44,738 nt of DNA from Flavobacteriales bacterium (GTDB lineage Bacteria > Bacteroidota > Bacteroidia > Flavobacteriales > BACL11): positions 405,396 through 450,133 of the forward strand of contig PAUF01000007.1 of NCBI GenBank assembly GCA_002712715.1, in the 5' to 3' direction. Every line of letters starts with the position of its first letter. Position 1 is the stretch's first letter. Position numbers and translations under genes: made by a program. Below the pieces are notes generated by a model that had not been told where the DNA came from, did no database searches, and saw nothing but the letters and a program-made list of their open reading frames with translations. Below, in pieces: positions 4,727 to 13,285 of this stretch.

Positions 4727-7056
4727 TTATTTTTTTTAGTTTTATTTTTGATTTGCTTTTCCATTAATTCTAAGCAAACTTCTCTATTTAAACTCTTTGG
4801 ATCAGATTCTTTTGGAATTTTAATGTTAATTTTCTTACTATTTTTATTCACTATCTGAATAAATGGGCCATATCTACCATTTAACACATAGACATTAGGG
4901 TCCCCCTCATAAAATGCAATAATTCGATCCTGATCAGCCTTGATTTTTTGATCAATTAATTCAATAGACCTATCTAAATCAATGGTTAAAGGATCGTCTC
5001 CTTCATCTTTTTTAATAGAAGTGAATTTTCCATCATGTCTTAAATAAGGACCAAATCTACCAACTGAAGCAATAATTTCCTTGCCTTTATATTCCCCCAC
5101 CTTTCTGGGCAATTTAAATAAATCCATCGCTTCATTAATAGTAATAGTCTTAATAGACTGACCTTTTAACAAAGAAGCAAATTTTGGTTTTGGGGATGAA
5201 TCATCCTCTTGTTTTTCACCCAATTGAGCCATAGGACCAAAAGGACCAATGCGTACGTAAACATTTAGATTTGATTTTGGATCTTTACCAAGCAATCGCT
5301 CTCCAGTAGATTTTTGAACATTACCTATAACATCTTCAACCTTCAAATGAAAATCTCCGTAAAAATTACGAATCATTTCATTCCAACTTTTATTACCAGC
5401 AGCTATTTTGTCAAATTCTTTCTCAACCCCTGCGGTAAAACCATAGTCTAAAACATTGTCAAAATGATCTACTAAAAAATCAGTAACTACAAAACCAATG
5501 TCTGTAGGAAACATTTTGTTTTTCTCGACTCCTGTTTTTTCAGTTTTAATTTCTGAATTAATAGATCCATTTGATAATGAAATTGTTTGGTAATTCCTTG
5601 GAATACCCTCTCTACTTTCCTTAACTACATAGTTTCTTTTCTGAATAGTTGTTATAATAGATGCATATGTAGATGGCCTACCAATACCCAAATCTTCTAA
5701 TTTCTTAACTAAACTAGCTTCAGCGTACCTTGGAGGGTGTTTTGTAAATTTCTGTGAAGCAACAATATCCTTACAGATAGTAACATCCCCAACATTCAAA
5801 AAAGGTAACATCCCTTTTTTTTCTTCAGTATCCTCATCTTTACCTTCCATATAAACTTTCATAAATCCATCAAACTTAATCATTTCTCCCCTAGATACAA
5901 ACTGATCATCCATATTAGAAATACTAATTTTCGCTACTGTTCGTTCTAATATAGCTTCTGACATTTGAGAAGCTATTGTCCGTTTCCATATCAATTGATA
6001 TAATTTTTCATGTGAAGCGTCACCATGAATCAACTTTTCTTCCATATTAGTAGGACGTATAGCCTCATGTGCTTCTTGAGCTCCCTTAGATTTAGTAGAA
6101 TAACTTCTTGTATGAGAATATTCTTTTCCATATGATCTACTTATCTCTTTTTTAGCAGACATCATAGCGTCATCCGATAGATTCACACTATCAGTTCTCA
6201 TATATGTAATTTTACCTGATTCATATAATTTCTGAGCAACAGTCATTGTTTGAGATACTGAATAACCAAGTTTCCTAGAAGCTTCTTGTTGAAGTGTAGA
6301 AGTTGTAAAAGGAGCAGAAGGTGTTTTTTTTGCAGGTTTTTTTTGTAAATCAGACACTACAAATTCCGCATCCTTACATTGTTCCAAAAACTGGACCGCC
6401 TCTTGGTCGTTAGTAAATCTTCTATTAATTTCAGAAGTAAAATTTTTAGATTCTTTATTTTTAAAATTAGCTATAATCTTAAAGTACGAATTTGATTCAA
6501 AATTTTTAATCTCATTTTCTCTTTCAACAATAAGTCTTACCGCAACAGACTGAACTCTTCCCGCTGAAAGTCCTTGCTTTACTTTTCTCCATAATACTGG
6601 GGACAATTCAAAGCCTACCAATCTATCCAATACTCTTCTTGCTTGTTGAGCATCAACTAAATTAGCATTAATTTTTCTAGGGTTTTGAACAGCTTTAGTA
6701 ATTGCTTTTTTAGTAATTTCATGAAACACAATTCTTTTCAATTTACTATCGTCAAGATCCAACACCTCCTTCAAATGCCATGCAATGGCTTCACCTTCTC
6801 TATCCTCATCAGTAGCTATCCAAACTATTTTTGACTTACTAACACTCTTTTTCAGATCTGCAACTATATGTTTTTTATCCTCAGAAATAACATATTTTGG
6901 TTTAAAATCATCATCAATATCTATACCTATATTCCCTTTCTTTGGTAGATCTCTAATATGTCCAATACTAGATTTAACAACAAAACCTTTTCCTAAATAT
7001 GATTCAATAGTTTTAGCTTTCGCAGGTGATTCAACAATAACTAGATTTTCAGCCAT
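4723..7056 (-). CDS. topA: DNA topoisomerase I
   Basis: Type IA topoisomerase that relaxes negative supercoils through a 5'-phosphotyrosine intermediate. The Toprim domain is at the N-terminus (Glu9 in VIVESPAKAKTI; DEDREGE at 83-89). The catalytic tyrosine is Tyr285 in TYMRTDS. The C-terminal third lacks the Cys4 zinc fingers of the E. coli enzyme and instead has repeats of the form GPFGPM, GRFGPYL and GRYGPFI, as usual in this phylum. The last residues are lysine-rich. At 777 residues it is of expected length. It is the first gene of a two-gene unit with the arginase-family gene and is divergent from miaB. Confidence 0.98.
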   Translation of the reverse strand: MAENLVIVESPAKAKTIESYLGKGFVVKSSIGHIRDLPKKGNIGIDIDDDFKPKYVISEDKKHIVADLKKSVSKSKIVWIATDEDREGEAIAWHLKEVLDLDDSKLKRIVFHEITKKAITKAVQNPRKINANLVDAQQARRVLDRLVGFELSPVLWRKVKQGLSAGRVQSVAVRLIVERENEIKNFESNSYFKIIANFKNKESKNFTSEINRRFTNDQEAVQFLEQCKDAEFVVSDLQKKPAKKTPSAPFTTSTLQQEASRKLGYSVSQTMTVAQKLYESGKITYMRTDSVNLSDDAMMSAKKEISRSYGKEYSHTRSYSTKSKGAQEAHEAIRPTNMEEKLIHGDASHEKLYQLIWKRTIASQMSEAILERTVAKISISNMDDQFVSRGEMIKFDGFMKVYMEGKDEDTEEKKGMLPFLNVGDVTICKDIVASQKFTKHPPRYAEASLVKKLEDLGIGRPSTYASIITTIQKRNYVVKESREGIPRNYQTISLSNGSINSEIKTEKTGVEKNKMFPTDIGFVVTDFLVDHFDNVLDYGFTAGVEKEFDKIAAGNKSWNEMIRNFYGDFHLKVEDVIGNVQKSTGERLLGKDPKSNLNVYVRIGPFGPMAQLGEKQEDDSSPKPKFASLLKGQSIKTITINEAMDLFKLPRKVGEYKGKEIIASVGRFGPYLRHDGKFTSIKKDEGDDPLTIDLDRSIELIDQKIKADQDRIIAFYEGDPNVYVLNGRYGPFIQIVNKNSKKINIKIPKESDPKSLNREVCLELMEKQIKNKTKKNK

Positions 7057-7087
7057 ATAATTAATGTTTGAATTAAAAAATTAGTTG

Positions 7088-7095
7088 CAAAGATA
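7088..7095 (-). promoter_or_regulatory. -7 element of the topA promoter
   Basis: The minus strand reads TATCTTTG at 7095-7088, a perfect match to the Bacteroidota -7 consensus TAnnTTTG, giving a leader of about 28 bases before the topA ATG at 7056. No clear TTG lies at the usual -33 distance; a TTTTG is closer, 13 bases upstream. Confidence 0.6.
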
Positions 7096-7175
7096 ATGAA
7101 ACAAAATTCAAAAGTTAAAGACATTTTCTAACTCAATAAAATATATTATTATATAATAATATAAATTAAATATTT

Positions 7176-7200
7176 ATGACACATTGTCATATTGTGTCAT
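7176..7200. promoter_or_regulatory. Nested inverted repeat, possible operator in the topA/miaB divergent region
   Basis: A perfect 8-base dyad ATGACACA (7176-7183) and TGTGTCAT (7193-7200) is separated by nine bases. Inside it is a second perfect dyad, ATGACA-CAT-TGTCAT (7176-7190). The site covers the likely -33 region of the miaB promoter. This arrangement suggests a dimeric regulator, but I cannot assign one. It is too short and lacks a T-run, so it is not a terminator. Confidence 0.5.
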
Positions 7201-7216
7201 ATATTTTATATCTTTG
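7184..7216 (+). promoter_or_regulatory. Promoter of the miaB operon
   Basis: TATCTTTG at 7209-7216 matches TAnnTTTG exactly and is identical to the topA -7 element. A TTG at 7184-7186 lies 22 bases upstream (another at 7192-7194 is 14 bases away). Transcription would begin near 7220, just before the ATG at 7236, which excludes the earlier in-frame ATG at 7176 as the start. Confidence 0.65.
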
Positions 7217-7235
7217 TTGTTTGAAATTCATATTC

Positions 7236-8678
7236 ATGGAGAGACTGCTTACAAACAAAATTATTGATGAAAAAAGACAAGGTGAACTGTTAGATTTTCA
7301 GAAAAAAACTAGTAATAAAAAAATGTACATAGAAAGCTATGGATGTCAGATGAACTTTTCGGACTCTGAAATTGTCGCTTCAATAATGCATGATTCAGGA
7401 TATTCAACAACTAAAAATATTGCAGATGCTGACATCGCCTTTATAAATACATGCTCTATAAGAGAGAAAGCGGAAGACACTGCAAGAAAAAGAATATCTT
7501 TTTATAATTCAGTGAAAAAAAAGGAAAATCCAAATTTAATTATTGGAGTACTTGGATGTATGGCGGAACGCTTAAAAACCAAATTTTTAGATGACGAGAA
7601 AATTGTTGATTTGGTCATTGGACCGGATGCTTACAGAGATCTACCAAACCTAATAAAAGATGTAAACGATGGCAGAAAAGCAATTAATGTTATACTTTCT
7701 TTAGAAGAAACATATGCAGATATTAGTCCAGTTAGAACCGGCACTAATGGCATCACTGCGTTTGTAACAATTACTAGAGGATGTGACAATATGTGTAGTT
7801 TTTGCGTAGTGCCTTATACAAGAGGTAGAGAACGAAGTAGGGACCCACAAAGTATTATCAATGAATGCAGAAAATTAATCCAAGATGGATACAAGGAGGT
7901 AACATTACTAGGTCAAAACGTAGACTCTTACCTATGGTATGGTGGTGGACCAAAAAAACATTTTAAAAAATTATCAAAAAATCAGCAGAATGAGTCAACA
8001 AACTTTGCTAAACTTTTAGAGATAGTAGCGATTAATTTTCCTGAATTAAGAATTCGATTTTCCACCTCAAATCCTCAAGATATGACTGAGGAGGTAATCA
8101 TAACTATGAAAAATCATAAAAATATATGTAAATATATTCATTTACCTGTGCAATCTGGTAGCTCAAAAATATTAAAATTAATGAATAGAGGCTATGATAG
8201 ACCTCACTATCTGAAATTAATAGATATGATAAAAAAACATATTCCAGAATGTGGCATCTCAATGGACATGATTTCTGGATTTTGCACTGAAACAGAAAAA
8301 GATCATTTGGAAACATTAACTCTTATGGATTATGTAAAATTTGATTATGGATATATGTTCAACTATTCCGAAAGATCCAACACACCCGCATCTAGGATGG
8401 AAGACGATGTACCAAATGACATAAAAAAAAGAAGACTTTCTGAAATAATAAATAAACAAATGAAACATTCTCTTTTTAGAAATAAAGAAAAAATAGGAAA
8501 AACATATAATGTATTAATTGAAGGAATATCTAAAAAGTCATCTAAACATTTTTTTGGTAGAACTACGCAAAACACTGTTGTAGTATTCCCAAAAGGCAAT
8601 CATGAAATTGGGGAATACATACAAGTTAAAATTAATGATTGTACATCAGCAACATTGCTAGGAAATAAAATATCATGA
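7236..8678 (+). CDS. miaB: MiaB, tRNA-2-methylthio-N6-dimethylallyladenosine synthase
   Basis: Radical SAM methylthiotransferase that adds the 2-methylthio group to i6A37 in tRNAs, using two iron-sulfur clusters. The three cysteines of the N-terminal cluster are Cys37 (YGCQMN), Cys73 (NTCSIRE) and Cys108 (LGCMAE); the SAM cluster is Cys183, Cys187 and Cys190 (CDNMCSFC). A TRAM domain closes the protein. I chose the start at 7236 (480 residues) because the in-frame ATG at 7176 lies upstream of the -7 element and its extra 20 residues read through regulatory DNA. The stop overlaps the next start by four bases, indicating translational coupling to the regulator gene. Confidence 0.97.
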   Translation: MERLLTNKIIDEKRQGELLDFQKKTSNKKMYIESYGCQMNFSDSEIVASIMHDSGYSTTKNIADADIAFINTCSIREKAEDTARKRISFYNSVKKKENPNLIIGVLGCMAERLKTKFLDDEKIVDLVIGPDAYRDLPNLIKDVNDGRKAINVILSLEETYADISPVRTGTNGITAFVTITRGCDNMCSFCVVPYTRGRERSRDPQSIINECRKLIQDGYKEVTLLGQNVDSYLWYGGGPKKHFKKLSKNQQNESTNFAKLLEIVAINFPELRIRFSTSNPQDMTEEVIITMKNHKNICKYIHLPVQSGSSKILKLMNRGYDRPHYLKLIDMIKKHIPECGISMDMISGFCTETEKDHLETLTLMDYVKFDYGYMFNYSERSNTPASRMEDDVPNDIKKRRLSEIINKQMKHSLFRNKEKIGKTYNVLIEGISKKSSKHFFGRTTQNTVVVFPKGNHEIGEYIQVKINDCTSATLLGNKIS

Positions 8679-9841
8679 ATATAGAATCAACAAAGAATAG
8701 ATTTGGAATAATTGGGAACAGTAAAATATTAGAAAGATCCATCAATATTGCTTTAGAAGTAGCGAAAACAGATATTTCAGTATTTGTAGCTGGAGAAAGT
8801 GGAACAGGAAAAGAGAATATTCCAAAAATAATTCATAACAATAGCAATAGAAAACACAACTCTTATATCGCTGTGAATTGTGGAGCTATTCCAGAAGGCA
8901 CAATAGACAGTGAATTATTTGGTCATGAGAAAGGATCATTTACAGGAGCTCATGATAATAGAAAAGGTTATTTTGAGGTAGCCAACAAAGGAACAATTTT
9001 CTTAGACGAAGTGGCAGAATTACCACTTTCTACTCAAGTAAGGCTTCTTAGAGTGCTAGAAAATGGAGAATTCATGAAAGTTGGATCTTCGTCTGCCATT
9101 AACACTGATGTTCGTGTAATTGCCGCTACTAATGTAGACATGAATAAAGCTATAAAAGACGGGAAATTTAGAGAGGATCTATACTATAGATTAAATACTA
9201 TTAATATCTACATACCACCACTTAGAGAAAGAACTAAAGACATCAGCTTGCTATTTAAAAAATTCGCAGCTGATTTTGCGGAAAAGTATAATACTGAATC
9301 AATAATATTGGAAGAATCAGCCTTAGAAACATTAAAAAAATACAGATGGCCTGGTAACATAAGACAACTTAAGAATTTTGTAGCTCAACTTTCTGTGATT
9401 GCCAAAAATAGATTAATTAAGCAAGAAACTATCAACGAATACCTTCCTCAAGAAACAAAAAAAAACCAACCTATTCTATTTGATACAACTAGTAAATCAC
9501 AATTATCTGAAAGAGAAATACTATATAAAGTACTTTTTGACATGAAAAATGATCTTAACGAACTAAAAAAGATTACATTTGATTTAATAAACAAAAATAA
9601 TAATCCCAACATAAAAGAAGATTTTTTTAATGATGATAAATTTACTCTTCTAACAAAATTAAACGAATCTGAAAAGAAAGAAATTGTTGAAATAGAAGAA
9701 ACATTTTCATTAGCTAATCAAGAAAAAAACCTTATTAAAAAATCTCTAGAAAAACATAGCGGAAAAAGAAAATTAGCAGCCAAAGAACTAGGGATATCAG
9801 AAAGAACATTATATAGGAAAATTAAAGAATTCGATTTGTAA
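8675..9841 (+). CDS. Sigma-54-type AAA+ transcriptional activator without receiver domain
   Basis: This is an enhancer-binding-protein-like activator. The AAA+ domain begins almost at residue 10. It has Walker A GESGTGK (40-46), a GAFTGA loop written here as GSFTGA (87-92), Walker B GTIFLDE (106-112) and the arginine-finger region FREDLYYRL. A Fis-type helix-turn-helix ends the protein (about 350-388, RKLAAKELGISERTLYRKI). No receiver, PAS or GAF sensor domain precedes the ATPase, so control must come from abundance or a partner (inference). Between ATPase and DNA-binding domain is a polar linker of about 100 residues. It lies between miaB and lptE, an arrangement I recognise from other Bacteroidota. 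Its targets are unknown. Confidence 0.93.
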   Translation: MNIESTKNRFGIIGNSKILERSINIALEVAKTDISVFVAGESGTGKENIPKIIHNNSNRKHNSYIAVNCGAIPEGTIDSELFGHEKGSFTGAHDNRKGYFEVANKGTIFLDEVAELPLSTQVRLLRVLENGEFMKVGSSSAINTDVRVIAATNVDMNKAIKDGKFREDLYYRLNTINIYIPPLRERTKDISLLFKKFAADFAEKYNTESIILEESALETLKKYRWPGNIRQLKNFVAQLSVIAKNRLIKQETINEYLPQETKKNQPILFDTTSKSQLSEREILYKVLFDMKNDLNELKKITFDLINKNNNPNIKEDFFNDDKFTLLTKLNESEKKEIVEIEETFSLANQEKNLIKKSLEKHSGKRKLAAKELGISERTLYRKIKEFDL

Positions 9842-9842
9842 A

Positions 9843-10346
9843 ATGAAAAAAAATTTTATCATATACATATTTTGCGCAATATCCTCATTAAATATTGGGT
9901 GCTTTTATTCATTCACTGGGGCTTCAGTTAATCCAAATATTAAAACTGTAACTGTTAATTACTTTGAAAATAAAGCTGAAAATATCAACCCGTCATTAAG
10001 CACAACCCTTACAGAAAAACTGAAGGATATATTTAGTTCGCAAACAAACTTATCGATTGAAAAAAACAATGGAGATTTAGAATTTTCTGCAGATATTATG
10101 TCATATACAATTCTTCCCGTAGATATACAATCAAATCAGTTAGCAAATAAAAACAGAATGACAATAAGTATAAAAGTTAAATTCACGAATATAATGGAAG
10201 AAGGAGCTAACTTTCACACTACATTTAAAAGATTCAGAGATTTTCAATCTACAGCTAATCTAAGTCAAATTGAAGAAGAATTAATTAGCGATATATGTGA
10301 TGAATTAATTGAAGATATATTCAACAAAGCAATGGTAAATTGGTAA
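9843..10346 (+). CDS. lptE: LptE-like LPS assembly lipoprotein
   Basis: LptE plugs the LptD barrel and helps insert LPS into the outer membrane. The 167-residue protein has a lipoprotein signal ending LNIGC (Cys20) and then FYSFTGASVNPNIKTVTV, which is typical of LptE in this phylum, followed by alternating strands and a C-terminal helix. It starts one base after the regulator stop. Sequence conservation of LptE is low, so the call relies on the N-terminal pattern and the gene order before secG. A later gene, lptB (35998-36720), serves the same LPS export pathway. Confidence 0.85.
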   Translation: MKKNFIIYIFCAISSLNIGCFYSFTGASVNPNIKTVTVNYFENKAENINPSLSTTLTEKLKDIFSSQTNLSIEKNNGDLEFSADIMSYTILPVDIQSNQLANKNRMTISIKVKFTNIMEEGANFHTTFKRFRDFQSTANLSQIEEELISDICDELIEDIFNKAMVNW

Positions 10347-10348
10347 AT

Positions 10349-10963
10349 ATGAAGGAAATAAATATTAGTAAATTAATTAGCGATCCTGCAAATATTAACA
10401 AAGATCATATAGAAAAATTAAATACCATAATTTTCAAATATCCTTTTTTTTCAATTGGACACATACTCAAAGCAAGGGGGTTAGTGAATATTGAGAGTAT
10501 TCGTTCAAAACAACAAATACAACTTGGAGCAATTTACTGTAATAACAGACAAAGATTATTCGAAATGCTTTCTTATAAATCTGAAGAAAAAAATATTAAG
10601 AAAAAAAGTACCGCTAAAGAAAAAAAACATAAAGAACACAAACTTTCTTTTAATGAGTGGATAAATTTCTCGGATTCTACAGAATTAATAGATGATAAAA
10701 TTAATTTAATTGACAAGTTTATTGAAGATCAGGATACTTCTAATTTTAGAAAAAATACGTTTTTTTCATCTACATCTAATGCGAAAAACTCATTAATAGA
10801 AAATCAAGAGATTGTTACAGAAACCTTAGCGGAAATTTATTTCAAACAAGGTCATCTAGAAAAATCTATAGAATCATATGAAAAATTAATTTTGAAATTT
10901 CCAAAAAAAAGCTCTTTATTTGCAAAGAAAATTAAACTAATCAAAGATATTATTAAAAAATAA
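10349..10963 (+). CDS. TPR-containing protein of unknown role
   Basis: The protein has 204 residues from the ATG at 10349, three bases after the lptE stop. An upstream TTG at 10340 would overlap lptE and is less likely. The N-terminal half (about residues 1-75, with HILKARGL and NNRQRLFEML) is helical. The middle is lysine-rich and charged. One recognisable tetratricopeptide repeat lies near residues 155-190 (ETLAEIYFKQGHLEKSIESY). There is no signal peptide or membrane segment, so it is probably cytoplasmic. The phylum commonly has such a gene between lptE and secG. No biochemical function is known to me. Confidence 0.8.
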   Translation: MKEINISKLISDPANINKDHIEKLNTIIFKYPFFSIGHILKARGLVNIESIRSKQQIQLGAIYCNNRQRLFEMLSYKSEEKNIKKKSTAKEKKHKEHKLSFNEWINFSDSTELIDDKINLIDKFIEDQDTSNFRKNTFFSSTSNAKNSLIENQEIVTETLAEIYFKQGHLEKSIESYEKLILKFPKKSSLFAKKIKLIKDIIKK

Positions 10964-10965
10964 CT

Positions 10966-11241
10966 ATGGAAGTATTAAATATATTAATTATCATTTGTTG
11001 TTTACTACTAGTAATGATAATATTAGCTCAAAATCCAAAAGGTGGAGGACTATCTTCGACATTTGGAGGAGGAGGAAACCAAATGATGGGAGTTCAGAAA
11101 ACAACTGACTTCCTAGAAAAAGCAACTTGGATTCTAATAGTAGCCCTAATATCCATGATAATCTTGTATAATGTTAGTTGTGAAGACTGTACAACAAGTC
11201 AGATCACTTTCTTCATTACCGAAAAACAAAGTCATATTTAA
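10966..11241 (+). CDS. secG: SecG, protein translocase subunit
   Basis: SecG is the small accessory subunit of the SecYEG channel. The 91-residue protein has the two expected membrane helices (about residues 3-21 and 53-70), with the conserved motif QNPKGGGLSSTFGGGG between them. The C-terminal tail has two cysteines (SCEDC). It starts two bases after the preceding gene, so it is probably expressed from the miaB operon promoter. Confidence 0.94.
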   Translation: MEVLNILIIICCLLLVMIILAQNPKGGGLSSTFGGGGNQMMGVQKTTDFLEKATWILIVALISMIILYNVSCEDCTTSQITFFITEKQSHI

Positions 11242-11273
11242 ATAGACCTATTACTGACATTATTTCACCAAAC

Positions 11274-11304
11274 TTGTTAAAATCCATATTTGGCATAGTA
11301 TTAG
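11274..11304 (+). promoter_or_regulatory. Weak candidate promoter for groESL
   Basis: The 104-base gap between secG and groES should hold the chaperonin promoter. The best arrangement I find is TTG at 11274-11276 and TAGTATTAG starting 19 bases later at 11296, which fits spacing but only partly fits TAnnTTTG. A CATATTTG (11285-11292) is a one-mismatch alternative without a -33 partner. No CIRCE inverted repeat (TTAGCACTC/GAGTGCTAA) is present. Confidence 0.3.
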
Positions 11305-11345
11305 ATAATATAATTAATAGTAAGTAATTAATAAAATAAAATAAA

Positions 11346-11624
11346 ATGAAAGTAAAAATCAAACCACTAGCTGACAGAGTACTAATAAAAGTATCTGAAG
11401 CTGAAACAAAAACAGCTTCTGGAATAATAATTCCAGAAAATGCACAAGAAAAACCTCAAAAAGGAAAAGTAGTTGCAGTTGGATCTGGATCTAAAGATCA
11501 TACAATGACTGTTAAAGTTGGTGATACAGTCTTATACGGAAAATACTCAATGACAGAACTAAATCATGAGGGAGAAGATTTCATCATAATGAAGGAATCA
11601 GATATCTTTGCAATTATATCATAA
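11346..11624 (+). CDS. groES: Co-chaperonin GroES
   Basis: GroES caps the GroEL ring. At 92 residues it is of standard length. Visible motifs are KIKPLADRVLIK at the start, the mobile loop ETKTASGIIIPENAQEKPQ, and GDTVLYGKYSMTEL. It lies 26 bases before groEL, with which it is certainly co-expressed. Confidence 0.98.
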   Translation: MKVKIKPLADRVLIKVSEAETKTASGIIIPENAQEKPQKGKVVAVGSGSKDHTMTVKVGDTVLYGKYSMTELNHEGEDFIIMKESDIFAIIS

Positions 11625-11632
11625 AAAATTAA

Positions 11633-13285
<1,653 letters not shown>

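Follow-up and report, generated by a model that had tools for sequence, protein, structure and literature searches.

The DNA between the divergent genes topA and miaB carries a nested inverted repeat, which raises the question of what binds there and which genes depend on it. The window, that is, the whole stretch of 44,738 nucleotides that we analysed, contains two perfect dyads sharing a left arm, as the preliminary description had reported. The outer dyad is ATGACACA (7176-7183)-N9-TGTGTCAT (7193-7200), and the inner one is ATGACA (7176-7181)-CAT-TGTCAT (7185-7190). The core of the inner dyad, TGACA-CAT-TGTCA (7177-7189, no strand assigned), represents a candidate class-wide operator, TGNCA-N3-TGNCA, and the outer dyad arises from the same left arm and a third half-site, TGTCA (7195-7199, plus strand), which lies 10 bp, or one helical turn, 3' of the right arm. 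In PMC9723704 the consensus of the Bacteroidota sigma-A -7 box is given as TAnnTTTG. When this box was set at -12 to -5, following the numbering of that source, the miaB promoter had a -7 box, TATCTTTG (7209-7216, plus strand), 19 nt 3' of the dyad, and the dyad itself spanned approximately -44 to -32. It therefore overlies the -33 region of this promoter, where the preliminary description had placed it. The same description was also right about topA (identity confirmed by Pfam): its promoter, on the minus strand, uses the identical TATCTTTG as -7 box, and some 80 bases separate this box from the dyad.

Inside the window alone, the motif was not significant. When one mismatch was allowed, TGACANNNTGTCA matched at 3 places against 1.48 expected, and 20 of 100 shuffles also reached 3, a result that taken by itself would suit a chance inverted repeat without function. 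We then took the DNA upstream of miaB from 88 genomes (60 relatives and further members of the class Bacteroidia) and scored TGNCA-N3-TGNCA within 300 bp of the gene, with 100 dinucleotide shuffles as the control. The dyad was present in 79 of the 88 genomes, compared with an average of 0.28 and at most 2 in the shuffles, so that footprinting bore out the conservation in close relatives to which the preliminary description had looked. The dyad is thus not a product of chance; conservation is the proof, and the probability of a functionless repeat is negligible. Four genomes without a usable full-length miaB start (G008, G017, G018 and G032) and four loci outside the class (L237-L240) had been left out of the 88. 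A second set comprised 80 loci from records that carry a name or label, most of them of Flavobacterium and other Flavobacteriaceae, and L352 was dropped from it; all 79 loci with a usable miaB start carried the dyad. The two sets are not fully independent, because they share taxa (e.g. L290/G053).

What is conserved is the inner dyad TGNCA-N3-TGNCA, not the nested pair. The preliminary description had proposed that one dimer chooses between the two sites. Because the extra half-site was seen only in the window's own genome and G011, G022, G030 and G035, this clade-specific arrangement was rejected as a general design; G009, G020 and G028 have an overlapping second dyad instead. Seven of the 88 genomes had no dyad at either miaB or the activator gene described below (G045 and G058 are set apart as a special case), and three of these (G075, G132 and G166) had a site matching 7 of the 8 fixed positions at the usual place before miaB. 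The other four (G047, G051, G066 and G181) keep the activator and had no dyad-like site at miaB; in G181 a 7-of-8 site was seen only far upstream, at -204. The four loci outside the class had no dyad before the activator gene, and matches to the pattern in 8 of 111 genomes outside the class, none of them near a match to the activator, were judged to be chance. Within the class, the dyad was kept before miaB where the fetched stretch had no topA match (e.g. L040, L041, L043, L044, L049 and L050). The site therefore belongs to the miaB side, and control of topA by the dyad was discarded as a general rule.

Two further elements were observed in this material. Between topA and miaB lies an AT-only perfect 22-bp palindrome, TATATTATTATATAATAATATA (7142-7163), and 35 of the 88 genomes (the window's own family and one sister family) carry this element as TATATTAT-N-ATAATATA. 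In 30 of these 35, its centre and that of the dyad are 29-31 bp, or about three helical turns, apart. Within the own family, the pattern is close to single-copy in each genome, and its candidate roles are a second operator, a bend, an UP-like element or a supercoiling-sensitive cruciform beside topA. A further site that combines a dyad with TAnnTTTG, TGTCATTTTGTCAG, precedes an ORF of 223 aa resembling trmD at L097:3077 and L098:2061, in two genomes that belong to the same genus.

As first gene of the run, miaB (7239-8678, plus strand; confirmed by NCBIfam) is followed by the gene for a sigma-54 activator (bEBP) of 388 aa (8675-9841, plus strand), our proposed dyad-binding protein, and then by lptE (9843-10346, plus strand), an ORF of 207 aa with a weak TPR match and no NCBIfam match (10340-10963), and secG (10966-11241, plus strand). 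The genes groES (11346-11624) and groEL (11651-13285) follow on the same strand (11346-13285 together). The bEBP has a Sigma54_activat AAA+ domain (PF00158; 225-228 bits against a cut-off of 20.2) and a C-terminal Fis-type HTH (PF02954; 48.2 bits against 22), in which LGISERTLYRK is near-invariant among members of the class, and it has no N-terminal receiver domain. Its sigma-54 contact loop reads GSFTGA; the S variant of the GAFTGA loop is functional, and one or the other form was present in all but 2 (L221 and L233) of 74 bEBP loci. Among the 25 NCBIfam families shown, the protein reached no equivalog cut-off. The window's own genome has a single RpoN match (C7:60152-60628), RpoN being found in 53 of 60 genomes in all, and five PF00158 matches, one strong (this bEBP) and four of at most 39 bits. 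Sigma-54 promoters need an activator of the bEBP type (PMC7175178), and with one strong PF00158 protein in the genome, this bEBP is therefore the candidate activator for the groES promoter of the same genome; a second activator could be missing, since the assembly is 91% complete.

The relation between the dyad and this gene was seen in G045 and G058, two genomes of one family in which miaB lies apart from the bEBP gene. In them the start of the bEBP gene is preceded by a perfect dyad, at distances of 67 and 69 nt, and a search of 300 bp upstream of miaB found none. In these split genomes the dyad has thus stayed with the activator gene rather than with miaB. The earlier suggestion that a regulator bound here controls the run from miaB to secG thus holds in part: the site is of a regulator type, is conserved and belongs to the run with the AAA+ activator, whereas only the inner dyad is the conserved object.

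A related site lies at groES. A degenerate dyad, TGACATTATTTCA (11255-11267, no strand assigned), with 7 of the 8 fixed positions precedes the gene, and the TGGCA of a sigma-54-like -24/-12 element, TTGGCATAGTATTAGA (11290-11305, plus strand), starts 23 nt after it. A scan of the own genome for sigma-54 elements with TTGGCANNNNNNTTGCW and one mismatch gave 71 matches and was too loose for use. A tighter scan with TTGGCANNNNNTTNGA gave 10 matches, among which only groES had a 7-of-8 dyad-like site within 60 nt upstream. Sites with at least 7 of the 8 positions were present at groES in 17 of 21 genomes (the own genome and 20 others), whereas shuffles averaged 1.26 and never exceeded 5; the remaining four had not even a 7-of-8 site there, and in G050 the best match was 55 nt away. 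Among 76 groES loci of named Flavobacteriaceae, six were dropped because no sigma-54 element was recognised, and in all 70 others TGGCA was preceded, at 11-13 nt, by a perfect TGNCA half-site, with a left half that usually read GAAA. Apparent 8-of-8 dyads at 48 of the 76 loci included arms of the preceding intrinsic terminator, as the printed examples showed. Because such arms mimic the dyad, this count was dropped and the site was re-measured from the sigma-54 element. In the reduced genome G051 (345 kb), which keeps RpoN and the bEBP, the miaB copy of the dyad is absent and a perfect dyad stands before groES, 23 nt upstream of TGGCA (L104:9439-9451).

The combination was then sought in the 60 relatives as a dyad followed at 5-35 nt by TTGGCA-N5-TTNG, and the reversed pattern served as control. 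We obtained 12 matches in 10 of the 60 genomes and none with the reversed pattern. All 12 precede heat-shock genes (grpE 7, htpG 4 and lon 1), as identified by Pfam on the proteins of six loci and by similarity to these for the others. The strict pattern had no match in any of the 37 genomes from the family to which the window belongs, in which groES carries the degenerate version. These sites also bear on the number of copies expected per genome, which the preliminary description had offered as a means of refutation. Exact TGACANNNTGTCA occurs once more in the own genome, inside an ORF, and the looser TGNCANNTTGNCA at 7 places. One exact extra copy thus exists, but counting copies was the wrong test: the strict motif is close to unique to the miaB operon, and the heat-shock promoters carry related sites beside their sigma-54 elements.

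At lon of the own genome, we noted post hoc a small ORF overlapping the gene and preceded by a sigma-54-like element, TTGGCATACTTATTGA (L064:1340-1520, minus strand). Two dyad-like sites lie upstream of this element, a 7-of-8 site at 20 nt and a 6-of-8 site at 12 nt, and an exact TGTCAATTTGTCA occurs still farther upstream, within the last part of the gene before.

Distances from the dyad to TGGCA at the chaperone genes were mostly 12-13, 23-24, 32 and 42-44 nt. Successive values differ by roughly one helical turn, as would suit an activator bound on one face of the DNA; a helical-phase test gave a p value of 0.009 and is illustrative only, as the four distance classes were picked post hoc. 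The sites of bEBPs are usually remote, at about -80 to -150. Here that position was not found: the sites are mostly 12-24 nt before TGGCA and are centred near -44 to -55. The dyad is likely a bEBP site that lies far nearer to its promoter than in the textbook arrangement.

This unusual closeness to the -24 element could also be read as the mark of another dimeric regulator, encoded elsewhere, that binds the dyad and has the bEBP gene as a target coordinated with the chaperone genes. The bEBP is a candidate for the binding protein. We regard a separate regulator as unlikely, for the dyad travels with the bEBP gene when this is detached from miaB and stays at groES in the 345-kb genome that retains RpoN and the bEBP. 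Moreover, the sigma-54 promoters need a bEBP, and the conserved dyad is where one would most naturally expect it to bind.

The look-alikes before Flavobacterium groES, together with a T run after the right arm in part of the own family, raised the question of whether the dyad is a terminator arm or another RNA hairpin. Against this, the dyad precedes the -7 box with little variation in spacing, and the sites before grpE, htpG and lon are phased to sigma-54 elements. Terminator prediction over 6900-7400 called none, and because the flanking topA is divergent, there is no read-through to stop at the miaB dyad. A role in termination or in another hairpin is thus very improbable.

What the bound protein does at miaB is a separate matter. 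Because the dyad there overlies the -33 region of the sigma-A promoter, a protein bound to it would be expected to repress the operon. The spacing of the -7 box allows a different reading, in which the bEBP or another protein recruits the sigma-A polymerase, so that autoregulation would be positive; the two readings differ solely in whether binding raises or lowers miaB transcription. The -7 box is exactly 18 nt from the dyad in 66 of the 79 named-record loci. Distances to the -7 box are mostly either 8-9 or 16-21 nt; 10, 11 and 14 nt occur once each, and in five cases no box was recognised. Such tight spacing, in classes about one turn apart, would suit contact with the polymerase. A dyad on the -33 element, or between -33 and -7, is however in the typical position of a repressor, and bEBPs seldom activate promoters of the sigma-70 type. 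We consider activation at miaB unlikely.

Taken together, the evidence makes it quite probable that the dyad is the operator of the bEBP encoded in its own run, activating at the sigma-54 promoters of chaperone genes and autorepressing at its own sigma-A promoter. At the chaperone and protease genes groES, grpE, htpG and lon, the bEBP would use the dyad as a promoter-proximal upstream activating site. On the dyad of its own operon, it would block RNA polymerase at the -33 element, and this autorepression would lower the bEBP together with MiaB, LptE and perhaps SecG. Both the assignment of the bEBP to the dyad and its repressive action at miaB are inferences.

Several known systems resemble this arrangement in part. 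In Flavobacterium psychrophilum, sigma-54-type promoters with the motif SM4 have been mapped at groESL, lon, dnaK, grpE-dnaJ, htpG and clpB (PMC9723704). The genes groESL, grpE-dnaJ, htpG and lon and the -24/-12 promoter type are common to that account and to ours. The portion of PMC9723704 drawn on here predicts three PF00158 proteins and leaves open which one activates the chaperone promoters, assigning neither an activator nor a site for one, whereas we describe a helically stepped dyad and a candidate activator. Since three such proteins exist in F. psychrophilum, other activators may act there, and the activator-lptE pair of that species has a promoter of its own of another type, SM5 (PMC9723704).

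With regard to the protein, the bEBP resembles those of the PspF type in its AAA+ core, C-terminal Fis-type HTH and lack of a receiver domain. PspF autorepresses its own promoter of the sigma-70 type. The bEBP differs from PspF in scoring below the NCBIfam PspF cut-off (266.5 versus 443.55 bits), in having chaperone rather than phage-shock targets and in a site that is much nearer to the promoter. It shares the AAA+ domain with the NtrC family, LuxO, FleQ and ZraR, and its best matches among solved structures were FleQ and NtrC-type proteins; its lack of a receiver domain and of any equivalog assignment in the families shown sets it apart from NtrC-family response regulators and from LuxO, FleQ and ZraR. 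Another inverted repeat that coordinates chaperone operons is CIRCE, TTAGCACTC-N9-GAGTGCTAA, the site of HrcA. The dyad is likewise common to chaperone operons, but differs from CIRCE in sequence and spacing and in being coupled to sigma-54 promoters. Judged by titles and the beginnings of abstracts, in a search that covered few subscription journals and preprints, no paper was recognised that gives the sigma-54 heat-shock promoters of Bacteroidota an activator or a binding dyad.

The control of heat-shock genes in Bacteroidota is poorly defined, and our analysis offers a candidate activator together with a precise DNA site that is conserved in most of the Bacteroidia genomes examined. There is about an even chance that the full picture is correct, namely a circuit common to the class Bacteroidia in which a receiver-less bEBP, encoded with MiaB, LptE, SecG and GroESL, uses one 13-bp dyad both for phased activation of chaperone genes and for self-repression, giving a self-limiting response of which the groES branch survives in a 345-kb genome. 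The circuit can be tested in laboratory strains with one gene deletion and one footprint. By binding at this dyad, the bEBP probably runs the heat-shock response and sets its own level.
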